In this document: piece after piece, positions 13,893 through 30,440 of the stretch | How positions within the stretch are numbered: position 1 is the first letter of the stretch | How the letters are laid out: each line of letters starts with the position of its first letter | Assembly: GCA_026874595.1 (NCBI GenBank) | Contig: CM049319.1 | Location: forward strand, 2,694,601 to 2,758,600 | Origin: Sipunculus nudus | Lineage: Eukaryota > Annelida > Sipuncula > Golfingiida > Sipunculidae | DNA: 64,000 nt | Reading direction: 5' to 3' | Notes under the pieces: generated by a model | What the model was told of the DNA's origin: nothing | Seen by the model: only the letters and a program-made list of their open reading frames with translations | Databases searched by the model: none | Made by a program: the position numbers and the translations under genes

Positions 13893-14105
13893 TAGGACTA
13901 ATTGAATGATATTCTCTATTTTAGTGTGCACTAGGTGAACATTCTATTCCAGGATAAACCCAAAATAGCTTGAAATTATATTCTAGAATGTTAAAACAGA
14001 GAAGCCAATGCATATCACCTGACATCTGAAAAACTTGCTCGTCCTTTTGATAAAAGAATTGGACATTTTTATCACAAAATATCGTAAAAAGAATACATAA
14101 CTTTA

Positions 14106-14433
14106 TGACCTTTACTATGTAGAAAGAGGAGAGACTTTATTTTGATGCCACCTTGATTAATACAGGACTTCAGTTTTGTGTGTGCCCGAACTATGTGTTG
14201 AAGATGGACCTCAGTTTCTCATATACCGGATTCAGTTAAGTATTTCGTTGCAGTTCGTTATTTAGAGACTCAGTTTTTCTTCAGAGACTTTGTTATAAAT
14301 TGCGTTATGTGTTGACTATCATATTATTTGTGTATGAATGTAAATATTGTAATATATTAATATAGCACTGTTTTTGCACCCATATTTTGGTTACGTATTA
14401 ATTTGAAGGTAACGTGTCAGAGCATATGTGTTA
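14106..14433 (+). mobile_element. element B: 5' LTR fragment (Gmr1-like)
   Basis: This 328-bp segment is a direct repeat of 28734-29060 with only scattered substitutions. The 28-kb copy is the 3' part of a longer LTR-like segment that begins after a purine tract at 28371, so this 5' copy lacks the first ~360 bp, including the TATA-like box. It stops where element A's LTR begins (14437). No flanking target duplication could be identified. Confidence 0.65.
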
Positions 14434-14436
14434 TAA

Positions 14437-14578
14437 ACTAACATAGGCCGGACTTGGCAACACACAAGCGGGTCGTTGACGACCCGAGCATTTGGCCTTG
14501 TGTTAATACAACCCCTTATTTAAGCAACCAGTTCTGGCGGTCTTGTCCTGGCGATGCAAGAAACAAATACCCTATACA
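14437..14578 (-). mobile_element. element A: truncated 3' LTR
   Basis: Read on the minus strand this begins TGTATAGGGTATTTG, immediately after a G-rich polypurine tract (14579-14603). It matches the first ~140 bp of the LTR copies that start at 24256. It includes the hairpin CGGGTCGT-tg-ACGACCCG at ~14470-14487. The remaining ~1.35 kb of the LTR is missing and B-element LTR sequence follows. Confidence 0.7.
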
Positions 14579-14603
14579 CTCCTCCCCCCCCCCCCCCCCC
14601 CCC
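14579..14603 (-). promoter_or_regulatory. polypurine tract of element A
   Basis: On the minus strand a run of about 19 G followed by AGGAG directly precedes the TGT that starts the 3' LTR. This is the expected position of the plus-strand primer in an LTR retrotransposon. The G-run may have expanded after insertion. Confidence 0.6.
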
Positions 14604-19854: not shown

Positions 19855-21287
19855 GCAAAGTAATAACAACAAGGCAATGCAAAAGACTAATGAAAGGAAA
19901 ATATTAAAAGCCCGCAAACCCCACTGGATGCATAAAATTTCAAAGTAATACAAAATATCAATTTCCCTTTTAAAAACATAAGCTATACCCTATACATGCT
20001 GTTTTCACCCTGTTCATGCACAAAGTGCAATGTGACATGTATCACAGTTACACAGGGGAATATTACAAAGTTACAAAAAGCAATACATTACATGTACAAG
20101 AACAAGCACTTCAATGTGATGCAAGCAAATTTCATAGCGCATGCGCAAAGTTCATGCATAATAGTTCATATCAAATGCAGGAATAAGTTCATAAAGACCT
20201 AGGTCTATAGCGGGGAATAAATGTAAACAAAAGTGATACCTGTCGGAAGTGTCATGACGCGAGTGCCACCTGTCGACAATATCCGGCAAAGATGCGACGT
20301 CACGATCCTGTTGAATTGAGTGAGTGCTCCTATGGCGGCTTAAAAGAGTCTCTCGTAACTGTGCGCACCAAAATCACAAAACTCACTTTATTCGACGCAA
20401 GTCCAAGTCACTGATTTGAACTTAAACACACACACACCGCTGTGTTGAAACAAAAATCCATGCAGCGGAGTTAATCCATGCTATGGCCAACGAACCATGC
20501 AAATCATGCACGAAGCAAAAGGACGTGTCCATTCACTGGAGCTCCAAAGAAACGTGAAAAGACAGCGGTAGCGTAGCTGCTTGTGGAGGTACCCTCAACT
20601 TCACGGAATAAGTATACTTGGATAAACCAAGTATACCGAAAACTCTAGGCCGTTTGGAGACGGTAGATGGCACGAGCCAAGCTCTGCTACCATTTGTAAC
20701 GGTCCAGCCCCGATGCGGAGCGCAGACCGATGTTGTGGTATTTCATCGCGACCCTCCGAACCTCCCAGAAACGAACCAAGGACAAGTGGCGATACATCGT
20801 TTAATGACCCTGATGAAAAAAAAGATCATTGTGATGTGGAACGAGTGGTGTCGACAAAGTCCTATGGCAGAATCCATATATTACATATTACATATATTAC
20901 ATATAAGCGATACTGATTTTAAACACATAAAAACAGCTTAAACCTTAAAACTTCCAATGATGGCATTATGTACTATACTTTACAAAACACTAAAATATGA
21001 CTGCGAGTTGGAAAAGGAAATAAATGACTGATATTATTGACAAGGCAACTCTAAGAAGCTAAGGGAATGAAATAATTTCTCACCTGATGAAAAAAAGATC
21101 TATGTGAAGTGACACGAGTGGTGTCGACAAAGTCCTATGGCAGAGTGAGGGCTGAACGGACTTCGGGTCCGGGGTTTCCGCCACTCTGCACACTGTCAGG
21201 TGTTAGTTTGTTAATAAAGCTTATTTACATAACATAGGCCGGACTTGGCAACACACAAGCGGGTCGTTGACGACCCGAGTATTTTGG
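19855..21287 (-). mobile_element. element A: 5' LTR, start truncated
   Basis: This segment is almost identical to 22739-24170. Because element A lies on the minus strand, this is its 5' LTR. It lacks the first ~85 bp of the LTR (TGTAACGGG...), where B-element sequence is joined instead. On the minus strand it carries AATAAAGTGAG (~20390-20380), a candidate polyadenylation signal. A plus frame beginning MDKPSIPK (20618) lies inside both LTR copies but has no domain. Confidence 0.75.
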
Positions 21288-22738
21288 TAGAATCGCCCGC
21301 ATATATTGCATGTGGCCCAAGTGGCACACCTAGTCCAAAGGACTCAACTACAAATGTAGTACAGGGTAAACAGACCCTGAATAGAAATCTCGGTACGACT
21401 TTACAATCAGTACCTACCGGTCAGGGCTCGGCCCCGAGTGTAGAAATGAGTAAAGAAGTAATAGTTATACAACCAAATAGCCCTATATTGCCTATTATAG
21501 GTTTAGATATACATAATAGGATTCATTTTACAAATATATTTCCTCTGGAGTACAAATTAAATACCGCTAGTAGCATGTTGTTGATATCCAAATCCAGACG
21601 GGCAGCCATGATTTATTTTAAACAGATAATTACGGTATGGTAAACAATCTCCGTTCAGACTACCGTAAAGTATACCGGTCTGACCATGGGGGGGGTTTGG
21701 GGGGTCTCCCCCCACATTAAAAGCAGTTAATAATGTTTCTTTTTTGTTGTAGGAAATCTAAGGGGGGTATGGGGGGTTTCCCCCATCTTTTAAGTAGTTA
21801 ATAATATTTCTCAATAAATATTTTCATGATATTTACAACCATCGTTAGGTGGCGCTATTTATTACTCCACACCCAGATTTAAAAGCCCTCTTTTTCCTGT
21901 GACCTTCACATTGTCTTGCATGGTGTAATGGCATTAGTGTTCGAGTACTGAGCCGTGCTGCACAGGATATATTCCAGCGAGGACCAACTTCTGCTCTTTC
22001 ATGTGATATTCATGATTTATAATGTATACATGTACATACACATTTCTGAATAATAATAAAATGTCTTTCATCAACAGATAATGCCGCGGTAGGAAATAGA
22101 AGAGAAGACAATAGTGGTAGCAATATTTTATTCAGCTGTCCCAAATGTAGGTACTGATTGTAAATTCGCTCCGAAATCTCCAATGGAGTACAAACGGCGT
22201 AAAATCGCCTGATCAAAATGGGCAGGAACAGTTAAAGAAGGATAGGAGTGTAAAGAATGTAGAAGTTAGCATGAAAACTGATGCAAAAGAAATACAAAAA
22301 AAAGATCCTGATATTGCCTCCCTTAGAGAAAATGCATTGACTTAAGAGGAAGCAGATAAAGTTCCTACTTGTTTCCCCTTATAGAATGATGTACTCGTTA
22401 GAAAATATAGACCTCCCTCCATACCAGCGGACGAAACGTGGAAAACTCTTTATCAAACTGTAATTCCCCCCCCCCCCCCCGAGTATCGCTCAGAAATCTT
22501 TAAACTTGCGCATGATCATCCTATGGCAGGACACTTGGGTGTCAGGAAAAACAAACACAAAATTCTCCAACACTTCTATTGGCCAAAGTTAAAACGAGAC
22601 GTGGCGAAATACTGTCAAACTTGTCATGTGTGTCAAATGATTGGAAAACCAACCCACCAAATTAGTCCTGCGCCATACTCGCCCATACCAGCAACACATG
22701 ATGCGTTTGAATCAATAATACTTGACTGTGTAGGACCG
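21288..22738 (+). pseudogene. element B: second fragment (protease-integrase linker to integrase core)
   Basis: Outside the 783-bp insertion at 21391-22173, this matches 25331-25982 almost base for base. It holds the linker after the protease, then the integrase zinc finger with MAGHLGVRK (here the second zinc His is intact) and YCQTCHVC, and stops inside the core after ILDCVGP, the first catalytic Asp. There the next copy of the A LTR begins. A C-run at 22468 has 14 C where the other copy has six, shifting the frame. Confidence 0.8.
21391..22173. mobile_element. 783-bp MITE with 6-bp target duplication
   Basis: Ends are inverted: CGGTACGACTTTACAATCAG at 21391, and the reverse complement of CGGAGCGAATTTACAATCAG at the other end, with ~27 bp of TIR. 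AAATCT flanks both sides. The sister copy of element B has a single AAATCT at 25427-25432 with no insertion, so insertion site and duplication are proven within the window. No transposase frame is visible. Inside, two ~50-bp G/C-rich repeats (21687 and 21758) are tandem copies. A 6-bp duplication fits only a few superfamilies (some hAT lineages, Dada); the assignment is open. Confidence 0.85.
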
Positions 22739-24256
22739 CAAAGTAATAACAACAAGGCAATGCAAAAGACTAATGAAAGGAAAATATTACAAGTCCGCAA
22801 ACCCCACTGGATGCATAAAATTTCAAAGTAATACAAAATCTCAATCTCCCTTTTAAAAACATAAGCTATACCCTATACATGCTGTTTTCACCCTGTTCAT
22901 GCACAAAGTGCAATGTGACATGTATCACAGTTACACAGGGGAATATTACAAAGTTACAAAAAGCAATACATTACATGTACAAGAACAAGCACTTCAATGT
23001 GATGCAAGCAAATTTCATAGCGCATGCGCAAAGTTCATGCATAATAGTTCATATCAAATGCAGGAATAAGTTCATAAAGACCTAGGTCTATAGCGGGGAA
23101 TAAATGTAAACAAAAGTGATACCTGTCGGAAGTGTCATGACGCGAGTGCCACCTGTCGACAATATCCGGCAAAGATGCGACGTCACGATCCTGTTGAATT
23201 GAGTGAGTGCTCCTATGGCGGCTTAAAAGAGTCTCTCGTAACTGTGCGCACCAAAATCACAAAACTCACTTTATTCGACGCAAGTCCAAGTCATTGATTT
23301 GAACTTAAACACACACACACCGCTGTGTTGAAGCAAAAATCCATGCAGCGGAGTTAATCCATGCTATGGCCAACGAACCATGCAAATCATGCACGAAGCA
23401 AAAGGACGTGTCCATTCACTGGAGCTCCAAAGAAACGTGAAAAGACAGCGATAGCGTAGCTGCTTGTGGAGGTACCCTCAACTTCACGGAATAAGTATAC
23501 TTGGATAAACCAAGTATACCGAAAACTCTAGGCCGTTTGGAGACGGTAGATGGCGCGAACCAAGCTCTGCTACCATTTGTAACGGTCCAGCCCCGGTGCG
23601 GAGCGCAGACCGATGTTGTGGTATTTCATCGCGACCCTCCGAACCTCCCAGAAACGAACCAAGGACAAGTGGCGATACATCGTTTAATGACCCTGGTGAA
23701 AAAAAAATATCATTGTGATGTGGAACGAGTGGTGTCGACAAAGTCCTATGGCAGAATCCATATATTACATATTACATATATAATATATAAGCGATACTGA
23801 TTTAAAACACATAAAAACAGCTTAAACCTTAAAACTTCCAATGAAGGCATTATGTACTATACTTTACAAAACACTAAAATATGACTTTGCGAGTTAGAAA
23901 AGGAAATAAATGACTGATATTATTAACAAGGCAACTCTAAGAAGCTAAGGGAATGAAATCATTTCTCAACTGAAGATAAAAAGATCAATGTGAAGTGACA
24001 CGAGTGGTGTCGACAAAGTCCTATGGCAGAGTGAGGGCTGAACGGACTTCGGGTCCGGGGTTTCCGCCACTCTGCACACTGTCAGGTGTTAGTTTGTTAA
24101 TAAAGCTTATTTACATAACATAGGCCGGACTTGGCAACACACAAGCGGGTCGTAGACGACATGAGCATTTTGGCCTTGTGTTGATACAACCCCTTATTTT
24201 AGCAACCAGGTCTGGCGGTCTTGTCCTGGCGATGCAAGAAACAAATACCCGTTACA
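22739..24256 (-). mobile_element. element A: second, full-length LTR copy
   Basis: On the minus strand it starts TGTAACGGGTATTTG at 24256, a typical LTR start, and ends near 22739 at the same base as the LTR of 19855. Length is about 1.52 kb. The left neighbour is B integrase and the right neighbour is B gag. These are not adjacent in element B, so it is not a simple solo LTR in one B copy. Recombination between A LTRs or a local duplication is needed. Only a couple of dozen differences from the other LTR are apparent by eye. Confidence 0.75.
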
Positions 24257-24732
24257 TGAATATGCTAGAGACAAAGAATGTGCATTTAATAGATGGTGTC
24301 AGTCTATGAAAATAGGTCAGGATTTTGAAAAACTCAAAACAACTAATTTTAATAGAAGAGTTCAAAAACATATCCGTAGTGACATTAAAATATTTTTGGA
24401 TGAACGTAATGAATTTGCCTTGACGCACCGCCCCAGTTATACCAGTCACAGGAGAAGGTATGATGAGAAGAGAGAGGGTAGTAATTAAAAGTCCAAAACT
24501 TGGTCGGAGAAAGGGTAGTCCCTACTATTGGGGTCACTCTGGATCAGGTAAACCATGGTCCGATAATGGTAAACCCCAGTATAAAAGTCAATCTGACTCT
24601 CCTGCTCCCAATAAAGAAGGACAACCTAGGACTGGACCCCAATATTGTACATTCTGTGAGTTCAAGGGGCATACAGAATCTGAGTGTTATAAAAAAGGTA
24701 AGGTCAAAGTAAACCTAAACCTAATGCATTAG
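24257..24732 (+). pseudogene. element B: gag C-terminus with zinc knuckle
   Basis: A frame from 24258 shows a capsid-end-like helical segment (RWCQSMKIGQDFEKL, RRVQKHIRSDIKIFLDERNE) to a stop at 24486. An overlapping frame from 24460 to 24732 continues with a basic Gly/Ser/Pro-rich stretch and YCTFCEFKGHTESECYKKGK, a perfect C-x2-C-x4-H-x4-C knuckle. The shift between frames may be decay. The N-terminal gag and any leader are missing, because A-LTR sequence borders it at 24256. Confidence 0.75.
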
Positions 24733-25330
24733 CTGTTACGCATAGCATGAAACCGGTAACAGTGCCCAGTAATCTAGAGACTAAAGGTGTAACACAAAGC
24801 CCTGTCCACGAAAGCTTTCAGCCCTTTGTGTTAGATGGCTTTGTTCAGTTAGAAGGTAACCATGCAAGAAAGGCCCGTGTTAAAATCTTAAGGGATCGGG
24901 GCAACACAAAGCCTCGTTTTGAGATCTGTTCTTCCCTTCTCTAAAGAGAGTTACACGGGGTGTTCAGTTCAAGTCCATGCAGGGCGTTAATTCGGAATGT
25001 TTAGAATTTCCATTACACAGAGTGAAACTAGAATCTGATTTAGTCTCTGAATTTGTAACTGTAGGTGTTTGTTCAAAGTTGCCAGTAGAGGGCGTTTTGC
25101 TCCTCCTAGGCAAGGATTTAGCTGGTGACAGAGTGAAAATTTATCCCAGAATGACAAAATTGCCGAGCACTGATAGGGACACAGACCTGCTCCAGCTGTG
25201 TAGTGACTCGAGCGATGAGTAAAAAGGCAAGTCTGAAACCAGAGAGTTCTTTACTTGACCTCTCGCAAACCTTCATGGCGCATTCAAATGATGACGTCAG
25301 TGGCTTAAAGCCCGATACGCGAGTAAATGT
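24733..25330 (+). pseudogene. element B: aspartic protease
   Basis: Frames at 24747-24944 and 24977-25222, separated by stops and a shift, form a retropepsin. The catalytic motif reads DRG instead of DTG/DSG (near 24898). VEGVLLLLGKDLAG near 25090 matches the later conserved LLGxDL motif. The Thr/Ser to Arg change alone would inactivate it. It lies between gag and integrase, the first pol domain. Confidence 0.7.
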
Positions 25331-26830
25331 AGAATCGCCCGCATATATTGCATGTGGCCCAAGTGGCACACCTAGTCCAAAGGACTCAACTACAAATGTA
25401 GTACAGGGTAAACAGACCCTGAATAGAAATCTCCAATGGAGTACAAACGGCGTAAAATCGCCTGATCAAAATGGGCAGGAACAGTTAAAGAAGGATAGGA
25501 GTGTAAAGAATGTAGAAGTTAGCATGAAAACTGATGCAAAAGAAATGCAAAAGAAAGATCCTGATATTGCCTCCCTTAGAGAAAATGCATTGACTTAAGA
25601 GGAAGCAGATAAAGTTCCTACTTGTTTCACCTTATAGAATGATGTACTAGTTAGAAAATATAGACTTCCCTCCATACCAGCGGACGAAACGTGGAAAACT
25701 CTTTATCAAACTGTAATTCCCCCCGAGTATCGCTCAGAAATCTTTAAACTTGCGCATGATCATCCTATGGCAGGACGCTTGGGTGTCAGGAAAACCAAAC
25801 ACAAAATTCTCCAACACTTCTATTGGCCCAAGTTAAAACGAGACGTGGCGAAATACTGTCAAACTTGTCATGTGTGTCAAATAATTGGAAAACCAACCCA
25901 CCAAATTAGTCCTGCGCCATACTCGCCCATACCAGCAACACATGATGCGTTTGAATCAATAATACTTGACTGTGTAGGACCGCTAAGAAAAACTAAACAT
26001 GGCAATGAATATATTCTAATAATCATGTGTACTGCAACTAGATTTCCAGAAGCTTTTCCTCTTAGAACCATATCTGCAAAGAAAATTGTTGAAGCTCTGG
26101 TTAAATTTTTACTACTTTTGGCTTACAAAGAACATTACAAACGGACCAAGGTTCAAATTTCATGTCAAATATATTTGCCCAGGTTATGGCAGAGCTAGGC
26201 ATAAAACATTACAAATCCAGTGACATACCATCCTGAGAATCAAGGTGCTCTAGAGCGATTTCACCAAACTCTCAAAAACATGATTAGAGCTTATTGTCTT
26301 GACACTGGGAACCAGTGGGATGAGGGTTTACCCTTTTTGATATTTGCGGCCCGAGAAGCAGTGCAAGAAAGCTTAGGGTTTAGCCCTTTTGAATTAGTGT
26401 ATGGGCAATGTGTAAAAGGCCCCCTTGCGGGGTAGAGTAGTCAAAGTAGCTTGTTAAAATATGTTCAGGAATGAAAGGAGAAGTTAAGTGGGGCAACTGA
26501 AATCGCCCAAGAACATTTAACGAATGCCCAAAACAAAATTAAAGTATAGTATGACTACAAAAAGATAATTTAAACCTGGTGATAAAGTTCTGGTATTATT
26601 CCCAATTTCAGGACAACCCCTACATGCAAGCAAAATACTCTGGACCATACAAAGTTGTAGAGAAGAAATCAGATTTGAATTATATGATAGATACTCCTGA
26701 TCGTAGAAAGTCGCAACAACTTTGTCACATAAATATGTTGAAAGAATATCAGGACAGATCAGCGGAAAAATCTCAATCTATCCCCCCCCCCCAAACAAAT
26801 TTGGTACTCATTAAAGAAACTGAATAGAAT
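25331..26830 (+). pseudogene. element B: integrase, located upstream of RT
   Basis: The sequence shows, in order, a linker, an HHCC finger (AHDHPMAG, then GRLG where the sister copy has GHLG, then YCQTCHVC), ILDCVGP with catalytic Asp 1, QTDQG with Asp 2 (reached after a frameshift near 26110), and YHPENQGALERFHQ with the catalytic Glu. The C-terminal GPY-type module follows (YSGPYKVVEKK, 26630-26680). Stops and shifts occur at least at 25597, 26196 and 26434. The complete integrase precedes RT, the reverse of normal Ty3/gypsy order. Confidence 0.88.
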
Positions 26831-26845
26831 GCCGAGGATGTTCTA

Positions 26846-27640
26846 ATGAAGAAAACTGAACATCCTGTAAAACTGAACAACTCTGATATTTTAAACAATT
26901 TAGATCAGAAATTGTCACATTTGGATTTCGATCAGTTGTCAGAGTTGAAGGAAATCAGGTATATGATGGAGAATGATATTATTGAAAACAGCAGTAGTGC
27001 CTGGAGTTCCCCTTGTTGGTTGGTAAAGAAGCCTGATATGACTTACAGATTTTGTACAGATTACTGAAAGGTTAACAATGTAACAAGAACAGATACTTAC
27101 CCTTTGCCTAGGGTGGAAGATTGTATTGATAGGATTGGAACTGCTACGTATATTAGCAATTTAGATTTGCTCCAAGGTTATTGGCAGTTACCTCTTACCG
27201 AACGGGCTAAGCAAATATCTGCGTTTGTAACGCCAAACGGTTTGTTCCAGTACAAAGTTATGCCCTTCGGAATGAAAAAAATGCGCCAGCCTGCTTCATG
27301 AGACTTATGAATTGTGTATTATTATCTGGCTTATATAGCTGTACTTGCTATATTGATGATGTTGTTGTATACAATCACATATGGGAAGGTCATAAACAAA
27401 GTTTGGTAGAACTCTTTGAGAGACTGAAAAAAGCTGGATTGACGGTTAATCTTGCCAAGAGTGATTTTTTGTTGTGCAACTGTAACATATTTAGGGCATG
27501 AAGTAGGTCAAGGTTGTGTAAAACCAATTACCAGTAAAGTATCTGCTATTGTAGAATTTCCAGTTCCTACTAATCGTAAGGAACTAATGCGATTCTTAGG
27601 AATGACTAGCTATTACAGGAAATTTGTCAGAACTTTGTAG
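26846..27640 (+). pseudogene. element B: reverse transcriptase
   Basis: Pieces at 26846-27067, 27104-27301 and 27298-27640 in two frames. SPCWLVKKPD and RFCTDY (then a stop) are the fingers. SNLDLLQGYWQLPL and MPFGMK form the palm, and YIDDVVVY the catalytic Y-x-D-D. YLGHEVGQG and FLGMTSYYRKF are the connection. The motifs are of Ty3/gypsy type, not copia type, even though integrase lies upstream. It is broken by at least two shifts and two stops. Confidence 0.88.
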
Positions 27641-28119
27641 AAGTTGTAAATCCGTCAACGGATCTGTTGAAAAAGAACATAGAATTCCATTAGAATAAAA
27701 ACCGTCAAAATGCTTTTGAAAGAGTCAAAGCTATATTTCAAAGTGCACCTGTGTTACAGTCTCCCAAATTTTGATAAACCGTTTTCTCTCATGACGGACG
27801 CCAGTAATTGCGGTGTAGGCGCTGTGCTCATTAAAGACTTTAACATAAGTCATCCGGTTTGCTGCTATTCAAAGAAATTTTTACCTCATCAAAAGAATTA
27901 TTCTACTATTGAAAAAGACTTGAAGTATATTTGGGTTCTACGCCTTATGATATAACTGTCTATACAGATCATAATCCAATAACATTTCTTCATAAGATGA
28001 AGAATAATAACCAGAGATTAATGGGATGGAGTCTAGCCCTGTCAGAGTTTAACCTAGTTATCAAACACATCAAGGGCTCCGATAACATAATCGCTGATAC
28101 GTTATCGAGACGTCATTAA
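27641..28119 (+). pseudogene. element B: RNase H, last pol domain
   Basis: FSLMTDASNCGVGAVL carries the first catalytic Asp. KNYSTIEKDL is the Glu helix, VYTDHNPITFL the third region, and GSDNIIADTLSRRH the final Asp region, directly followed by the stop at 28117-28119. No integrase follows; only ~250 bp separate the stop from the purine tract and LTR. This confirms that RNase H ends pol in this element. Confidence 0.88.
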
Positions 28120-28370
28120 TTCTGATGATTGACTCTTGTTATAGCATCGGATATGTTCTGTCCTTTTGAAGAGCTGTATTACATATATTACATGTATTAA
28201 AATATTGATGATTATTATTGTATAAGAAATATTGAATGATACTATTTGTGATAATGATAATTAATAGTCTATAAGATGTCAACTTTAAGATGTCATATTA
28301 CTCATATACTCGTCATACATGATACAGTACTAATGCTTTGCTCTCTTTACCTGTCTTTAAGGGTTGGGGG
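28120..28370 (+). other. element B: 3' untranslated stretch with polypurine tract
   Basis: A non-coding AT-rich stretch after pol. It ends in AAGGGTTGGGGG (28359-28370), a good candidate polypurine tract, immediately before TGTTGCTG. Confidence 0.5.
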
Positions 28371-29060
28371 TGTTGCTGTGGACTCACCCGGACATCATAA
28401 GATGACGCTACGAAGTGATGTAACCGCCCCCCCCCCCCCCCCCCCCGTTTCCATGTTTATGGATCCATCCCGCCATCAGTGACTACTGACGCGCTTTGAG
28501 AAGCATAAACACTATTCTGGGACCATTCAGTGCTGGTTTTGCAGAACTAACGGCGCTATCGTTTCTCTCAAGCGAAACCACAAACTTCTGTGGTTTCAAC
28601 CTATTGTTGGAAGCCTATAAAACGAACTCGCCTACAGCACGAGGCGGGACTATCGATTTTGCTACGCCACGTTAATGTTTTCCCCGGGGACCGTGACGTT
28701 GGGCTCTTGGTCCCCAAGCCCACGGGATGCCATGAACTTTACTATGTAGGAAGAGGAGAGACTTTATTTTGATGCCACCTTGATTAATACAGGACTTCAG
28801 TTTTGTGTGTGCCCGAACTATGTGTTGAAGATGAACCTCAGTTTCTCATATACCGGATTCAGTTAAGTATTTCGTTGCAGTTTGTTATTTAGAGACTCAG
28901 TTTTTCTTCAGAGACTTTGTTATAAATTGCGTTATGTGTCGACTATCATATTATTTGTGTACGAATGTAAATATTGTAATATATTAATATAGCACTGTTT
29001 TTGCACCCATATTTTGGTTACGTATTCATTTGAAGGTAACGTGTCTGAGCATATGTGTTA
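28371..29060 (+). mobile_element. element B: 3' LTR
   Basis: It starts TGTTGCTG right after the purine tract and runs to the point where similarity to the 5' copy ends (29060). CCTATAAAACG at ~28615 is a TATA-like box in a GC-richer promoter-like patch. A C-run lies at 28428-28446. The last 327 bp repeat 14106-14433. The exact 3' end and target duplication are uncertain, because the outer flank and the inner flank of the 5' copy differ. Confidence 0.7.
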
Positions 29061-29104
29061 CGGTTCAGCCTGAGTAGTTTATTTGGTGTGAAAATGGACC
29101 GTAA

Positions 29105-29177
29105 CAATATATATATTTATATATATATGTATATATATATATGTATATATATATGTATATATATACATATATATATA
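29105..29177. repeat. (TA)n microsatellite
   Basis: TA tract with TG and TT interruptions. Confidence 0.95.
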
Positions 29178-30440
29178 GGAGGTAGAGTTACCCTCCGTTG
29201 TAAAGTGCTCTATGGCCTACAGACTAGGCTAGAGCGGTATAACTCTAAACTCTTCAGTGTTGTTTTTCTTCAGAGTTATATACAATTATGATTACTATGA
29301 AGGTGAAGGCTGTTCGTGTGTTGGCGTGACCAAGAGAACCTGCGGGCCCTGGGTGCGTAATCGTCTTCATTGATGGGTCATACAAACGAGAAACCCCCAA
29401 AAGGCGCACTCGTTTGTGAGTGAAATCGGGCACGGCCTTATCATTATCGTTGCAGAGCGCTCACCCTGGGTGGTAGCCGACCGTGATCAATACTTCATGT
29501 CGGATTAAAATTCTATATTTTACCTTAGTGTAAAAAAATGGCACAATATAAGTTTAATACTGTGATAGAACATTATATATTACATTCTCTATAAATCTCA
29601 CGACCTGTCAATACGCAATCTTAAAGACTAATACAGGATTAATAACTTTATGAATTTATAATGTATTCCCATAGCATACATTTTCACAATTAAATTTTTA
29701 ATCACCATATCTTGAGCATCTGCAGAAACCAATCCGGTTTCGGACTACGTGATAGGGCAGCATCACACGCTTCCTCTTATTTTATATCCTGGCATCAATC
29801 ATTCCCGGAGACGACTGCTTCTGCCTGCAGGCCCTGGGTGCCCCTGTCCCAATGCACTTGTATGTAATAAACTGTTTATAGGTTAATTAGCGAGAATACA
29901 ATATTTCGACCAGACGACCCTACATTGACATGGTCACTCAGAGGATGAGGGTCGCTGTTGGCGTCTGGCGATCGAGATGCTGGTGTGTTGGAAGATAATA
30001 GATCGAGTTCTTTCCAGGAACATTTAGAATTCAAAGCAGAATCCAAACTTTGAGGATACAGTGTATGCCTGATTGGTATTATGATTCTCTAAAAAAATAG
30101 GCGAACTATACTTGGTTGTTTTATAAAAAAAACCTGTACTGTTATGCAGTACTACGGTGAAGGAGATAAAACTGTAATTTCCAAGTATCAATGATTTTTC
30201 TATATATCGAAAGGGGATATCAGAATCACTATAAATCTGTGACTGAATCCTTTTAATCATCAAATAAAGGTCGCGGTACTGTCAATGGATAGTTTTGAAT
30301 TTAACTGTGAGGGTTTTACTAAAAGTGAAATCAACAAAGGTGAAATTCATTTTTATCACCGTGAGTCTTTATAAATATAATCAATAGATTCTATGATAAA
30401 AAAAATAGTCTACAAAAAGGATACGAAAAATGACGATTAT
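29178..30440. other. intergenic DNA, no gene seen
   Basis: The phrase GGCCCTGGGTGC occurs twice (29347 and 29830) in otherwise dissimilar surroundings, perhaps old repeat fragments. No coding signal is seen. Confidence 0.45.

Follow-up and report, generated by a model that had tools for sequence, protein, structure and literature searches.

Does the gene order of a single damaged element, with integrase encoded ahead of reverse transcriptase (RT), describe a family of retrotransposons or the accidents that befell one copy? The question is raised by a 64,000-nucleotide stretch of the Sipunculus nudus genome (assembly GCA_026874595.1, contig CM049319.1, positions 2,694,601 to 2,758,600), here called the window and numbered from its first letter, in which the remains of a Ty3/gypsy-type long terminal repeat (LTR) retrotransposon read, from 5' to 3', gag remnant, protease, integrase with a GPY/F-type end, RT, RNase H, purine tract and 3' LTR. 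A first-pass annotation, made from the window sequence, had proposed that order and assigned the element to the Gmr1-like kind. The copy is very probably a member of a many-copy, recently active family of Gmr1-like LTR retrotransposons, and it is well supported as a new member of that kind, whose gene order itself is already known.

Alignments within the window used as family reference a less damaged sampled copy, L012. The window copy, truncated at its 5' end, occupies 24257-29106 on the forward strand, as do all element features given below; by blastn it matches L012 over 24257-25196, 25191-26968 and 26947-28376 at 87.5-92%, and over the LTR at 85%. Its integrase (25638-26854), recognized from Pfam pieces and tblastn to L012, comprises an H2C2 zinc domain, a core and a GPY/F-type C-terminus, and is interrupted by stops and frame shifts. 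Pfam finds Integrase_H2C2 at 1.9e-20 (25638-26195) and Integrase_p58_C at 1.1e-12 (26555-26824); the catalytic core is weak in the window (rve_3, 0.031, 26205-26435) but clear in L012 (rve, 1.3e-13). RT, with the motif YIDDV, follows at 26900-27654 (Pfam RVT_1 at 4.1e-08 over 27068-27298 and 1.6e-09 over 27211-27501, and tblastn), its frames broken and about 145 bp gone near its start, where the blastn alignment has a gap. RNase H lies at 27658-28116, with stops in the tblastn alignment and RT_RNaseH matches at 6.6e-13 (27683-27955) and 6e-08 (27913-28116). The Pfam pieces and the tblastn alignments to L012 thus confirm that integrase precedes RT, and, as the first-pass annotation had stated, the integrase pieces have no match downstream of RNase H.

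The other parts that the first-pass annotation had named, gag knuckle, protease, purine tract and LTR, are likewise present. Upstream of integrase are a remnant of a SCAN-type Gag capsid (24258-24467; 66% over 82 amino acids to the SCAN piece of L012 by tblastn), a frame with a CCHC knuckle (24424-24732), recognized by eye, its sole Pfam match being zf-C2H2_10 at 0.31, and a protease region in pieces in three frames (24795-25195; 82-90% by tblastn to the protease piece of L012), named by eye from the motif ILRDTGA of L012 together with the similarity of the window to L012. A purine tract, read by eye at 28359-28370 and found in the same place with nearly the same letters in sampled copies, adjoins the 3' LTR (28371-29106; 85% identical to that of L012 across 755 columns). 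Because the LTR extends to 29106, the element ends there, 46 bp past the end first proposed (29060); the proposed start, 24257, stands as the point where family similarity begins. Since similarity begins only there, the copy lacks its 5' LTR and primer site as well as roughly the first 870 bp of the internal region, including the first part of Gag. With its 5' end and reading frames lost, and stops in the tblastn alignments of integrase, RT and RNase H alike, the window copy is a dead copy.

The genome (1.43 Gb, 153 contigs) was searched with one integrase piece and one RT piece from the window. From more than 5000 first-look candidates in each search, 150 were scored, and the resulting counts are lower bounds. 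For 132 of the 150 integrase places, which include two within the window, an RT place occurs within 8 kb; in 131 of these 132 it lies downstream on the same strand, at a distance of 1.3-1.7 kb in 126 of the 131. One integrase place has RT upstream, and 18 have no partner among the RT places listed. Viewed from the 150 RT places, integrase is upstream for 130, downstream for two and not listed for 18. The one integrase place with RT upstream, at L026, results from pairing with the RT of a neighbouring copy; the sampled copy there has its own RT downstream. Eleven window pieces were compared with 20 loci, sampled from the integrase list by taking each eighth rank and the final entry. In all 20 the arrangement of domains, from knuckle through protease, integrase and RT to RNase H, is unbroken, none having integrase after RNase H; at L025 no RT match was found for the sampled copy, and an adjacent second copy extends beyond the stretch.

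Such an order could be mimicked by local rearrangement or by the overlap of two broken copies, and the window offers the ingredients: a second, internally deleted copy, upstream tandem repeats and a truncated main copy. Copies elsewhere in the genome, which have LTR pairs and target duplications of their own, nevertheless share both order and spacing, which refutes this explanation and leaves it next to no probability. The earlier argument against a chance rearrangement, drawn from the window, is borne out by 131 of 132 paired places and 20 of 20 sampled loci, since dispersed copies keep the integrase-first order.

Sixteen of the 20 sampled loci carry LTR pairs of 720-775 bp (about 733 bp) with 5.2-5.3 kb between them, for a full copy of about 6.7 kb. 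The LTRs begin TGTTG and end GTAACA; a primer-type site, TAATGGCGAC, lies 3 bp after the 5' LTR, and the purine tract lies ahead of the 3' LTR. Mismatches between the LTRs of one copy range from 0 to 21, with no more than seven in 14 of the 16 copies and none in two, and pairs so nearly identical argue that the family has moved recently. Intact frames exist, for a single stop-free frame of 1606-1624 codons is found in four of the 16 LTR-paired copies, and stop-free frames of at least 1600 codons occur, by hand count, at 19 of the 150 scored integrase places. The work thus adds a many-copy, recent family to those of known integrase-first order. In L012, Pfam finds RVT_1 at 4.2e-35 and RT_RNaseH at 8.5e-35, with Integrase_H2C2, rve and Integrase_p58_C all present, and a D-D-35-E core was counted by eye on an alignment of a less damaged copy. 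The closest solved structure is that of Ty3 (7q5b) for both RT (1.6e-56) and integrase (1.4e-39).

Ty1/copia elements also carry integrase ahead of RT. The family differs from them in its RVT_1-type RT, its gypsy-type RNase H and an integrase with H2C2 and a p58_C/GPY-type end, whereas Ty1/copia integrases are described as being without the GPY module in the passages available from PMC2774666. Membership in Ty1/copia is ruled out for L012 by RVT_1, by the absence of any copia RT family among its Pfam matches and by the presence of Integrase_p58_C.

The Gag of the family provides a second character. The Gag piece of L012 matches Pfam SCAN at 1.6e-10, and a SCAN region is found by similarity in all 20 sampled loci, split in two pieces in four. 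When the genome was searched with SCAN, 150 of 2198 candidates were scored, and every one of the 150 exceeded the Pfam cut-off. Comparison of SCAN with H2C2 places, to which we give little weight, covered 73 of 150 and 48 of 150, respectively; at least 13 pairs lie within 6 kb, with integrase 1.6-1.7 kb downstream in 12 and at -4.6 kb in one. A further comparison comes from ten control loci outside the family, chosen by hand among the places matching the integrase zinc domain, in most cases because they ranked high or had long frames, and probed with five pieces taken from a family copy. Of these loci, five are RT-first (L029, L032-L035), four have integrase followed by RT (L031, L036-L038), and one, L030, has integrase followed by RNase H and no RT match. 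The five non-family integrase-first loci (L030, L031, L036-L038) all match SCAN. Because the Gag of the RT-first loci lay partly outside, their upstream stretches were added, and seven of the 11 upstream frames longer than 90 codons were scanned with Pfam. Within these seven frames SCAN was found in none of the five loci; instead, three have Retrotrans_gag (two above and one below the cut-off) and two a zinc knuckle alone (one above, one below). SCAN-type Gag and integrase-first order go together within one genome, an association for which these loci add within-genome evidence. The RT-first loci, like Ty3 (7q5b), have RT, RNase H and integrase homologous to those of the family but in the order RT, RNase H, integrase; that conventional Ty3/gypsy order, with integrase after RNase H, was not encountered in the family, and the five RT-first loci show that the method detects it.

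In the available passages of the literature, the Gmr1 clade consists of integrase-first Ty3/gypsy elements (PMC6238403, PMC8220671, PMC3587641, PMC2774666), reported from cod, a tunicate, crustaceans and the annelid Lamellibrachia (PMC8220671, PMC3587641), with about 200 copies in the frog Silurana (PMC4131045), and is called present in several phyla (PMC8556966). The clade, as described there, shares with our family a gypsy-type RT, RNase H and integrase, integrase upstream of RT, and a SCAN-related Gag; no difference appeared, the likeness being known from descriptions rather than from a Gmr1 sequence. The family has a SCAN-related Gag, which serves to mark Gmr1-like elements but does not formally define them. 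Passages of two reviews, PMC4592553 and PMC3424704, describe the SCAN domain found in vertebrate zinc-finger proteins as a homologue or a descendant of Gag from Gmr1-like gypsy elements, a statement whose source is Emerson and Thomas 2011.

Trees of RT (16 rows) and integrase (17 rows) were built from the best single match per locus for family, integrase-first and RT-first loci. Integrase-first elements fall on one side of a branch with support of 96/92 for RT and 100/98 for integrase; RT and integrase, which might have placed in different lineages, group with the same integrase-first elements. When yeast Ty3 is added, the family stays with the L031 group at 100/99 in the RT tree and 100/100 in the integrase tree. 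Two elements outside the family also match Pfam SCAN. L037 (G000:C6:35499300-35505300; SCAN at 6.4e-11) is a divergent integrase-first element with SCAN and CCHC in its Gag, its RT 40% and its integrase 39% identical to those of the family; in the integrase tree with Ty3 it stays with the integrase-first elements at 90/98, with a long-branch warning. L039 is a 6.4-kb contig (NZ_JASJAV010000046.1, 6369 bases) filed under a bacterial metagenome-assembled genome (Breoghania), where it is probably eukaryotic contamination of the bin. A single 1586-codon frame encodes its SCAN, protease, integrase, RT and RNase H domains, arranged as in the family; the last three are 55-58% identical to those of the family. 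In a second set of trees, which included L039, left out three family rows and had Ty3 in the RT tree only, L039 joins the family and its sister, the L031 group (L031, L036 and L038), at 100/99 for both RT and integrase. A scan of viral_contigs with integrase gave no pattern match, and one with the RT alignment gave 73 pattern matches with no relative among them.

Several observations weigh against placing the window copy in a recently active, Gmr1-like family. Pfam recognizes a protease neither in the window piece nor in the corresponding stretch of L012, and it does not detect SCAN in the window copy, where Gag is a remnant only. Activity of the family is read from sequence, low LTR divergence pointing to recent movement with no rate applied. 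Once Ty3 is added, L037 leaves the integrase-first group in the RT tree, and it does so again in the second set, so that in RT the integrase-first elements may not form a single clade; a constraint grouping all integrase-first RTs is not rejected (approximately unbiased test, p 0.438). Finally, because the comparison was with descriptions and included no Gmr1 sequence, membership in the Gmr1 clade proper rests on order and Gag type.

These last points would also suit an alternative in which the integrase-first order arose a second time, in a Ty3/gypsy lineage outside the Gmr1 clade, as would the mollusc survey of PMC6238403, whose available passages give six known gypsy clades without Gmr1 among them. 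Those passages name Gmr1 once, as an exception in the Background, and not among the mollusc clades found; the 16 new mollusc clades were defined by RT/RNase H, which may hide domain order. No title or abstract found in our literature search reported Gmr1 in molluscs. A second origin nonetheless seems improbable, given that SCAN-type Gag tracks the order (all five such non-family loci, against none seen in seven of 11 frames from the five RT-first loci), that the integrase trees hold all integrase-first elements together, and that a relative of the same order, L039, exists in an unrelated record. The Gmr1-like assignment of the first-pass annotation is therefore supported by order, by the RT and integrase trees and by SCAN-type Gag.

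A full copy encodes in a single open frame Gag (SCAN-type capsid and CCHC knuckle), protease, integrase (H2C2, D-D-35-E and GPY/F-type end), RT and RNase H. From general knowledge of the class, transcription would be driven by the LTR, the protease would cleave the polyprotein, tRNA-primed reverse transcription would take place inside particles, and the released integrase would insert the element. The order of domains need not alter this chemistry, because the domains would be cut apart from the polyprotein.

Insertion has left traces of its own. A 4-bp target duplication flanks 15 of the 16 LTR-paired copies, the LTR starts of four loci having been adjusted by eye before the count; at the exception, L020, the alignment begins only a few bases inside the 5' LTR. 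Either ATATATAT or TATATATA directly adjoins seven of the 16 sampled insertions, on several contigs, and also the 3' side of the window copy, where an AT repeat (29107-29178), whose first 8 bases are ATATATAT, directly follows the LTR. The background for these two words is 722 of 55168 window positions outside 20400-29200 (1.3%) and 28 of 59850 in the ten control loci (0.05%). The exact 21-base LTR end is present 412 times in the genome and is followed by the start of the primer site in 148; the other 264 ends belong to 3' LTRs, to solo LTRs or to such 5' LTRs as have an altered primer site, and 66 of them are followed by ATATATAT, the count being of that register and for this family. Five AT-flanked LTR ends lie within 0.2 Mb on one contig (C12:70.92-71.12 Mb), about 40-75 kb apart on one strand, an arrangement that suggests tandem segmental duplication, and the 66 are therefore not all independent.

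The bias toward AT repeats, a measurable property that the family adds to what is known of such elements, is strong but not fully controlled, and may reflect target choice or survival. Survival or duplication near AT repeats, rather than targeting, has an appreciable though minority chance of being the explanation; the partial non-independence on C12 speaks for it, and the spread of the seven AT-flanked insertions over several contigs, far above either background, speaks for targeting. The available literature passages yielded no report of such a bias for the Gmr1 clade. More tentatively still, and with less than even odds, this genome may hold a SCAN-capsid, integrase-first gypsy group of three lineages in which the integrase of the window family favours alternating AT repeats, and L037 may be a recombinant, combining the Gag and integrase of the group with an RT from another gypsy lineage.

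The window contains further pieces of the family, both on the forward strand. The second, internally deleted copy (21308-22762) consists of fragments at 21308-21391 and 22173-22762, found by blastn to L012 and 96-100% identical to the main copy over 25329-26007, and an LTR fragment at 14105-14433 corresponds to LTR positions 360-692 (90% to the L012 LTR). A 1.4-kb direct repeat, 98% identical between 19855-21287 and 22738-24173, flanks the fragments of the deleted copy, an arrangement that resembles the product of a tandem duplication with a later deletion and the insertion of about 780 bp. These 1.4-kb repeats are ruled out as LTRs of the element, since 14105-14433 and 28371-29106 are the only stretches of the window to which the family LTR aligns. 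Two other stretches, 14439-14579 and 24116-24256, are copies of one repeat (about 140 bp, 94% identical), which adjoins a truncated family piece at both sites: a cut LTR, ending at 14433, lies ahead of it at one, and the cut 5' end of the element, at 24257, lies behind it at the other.

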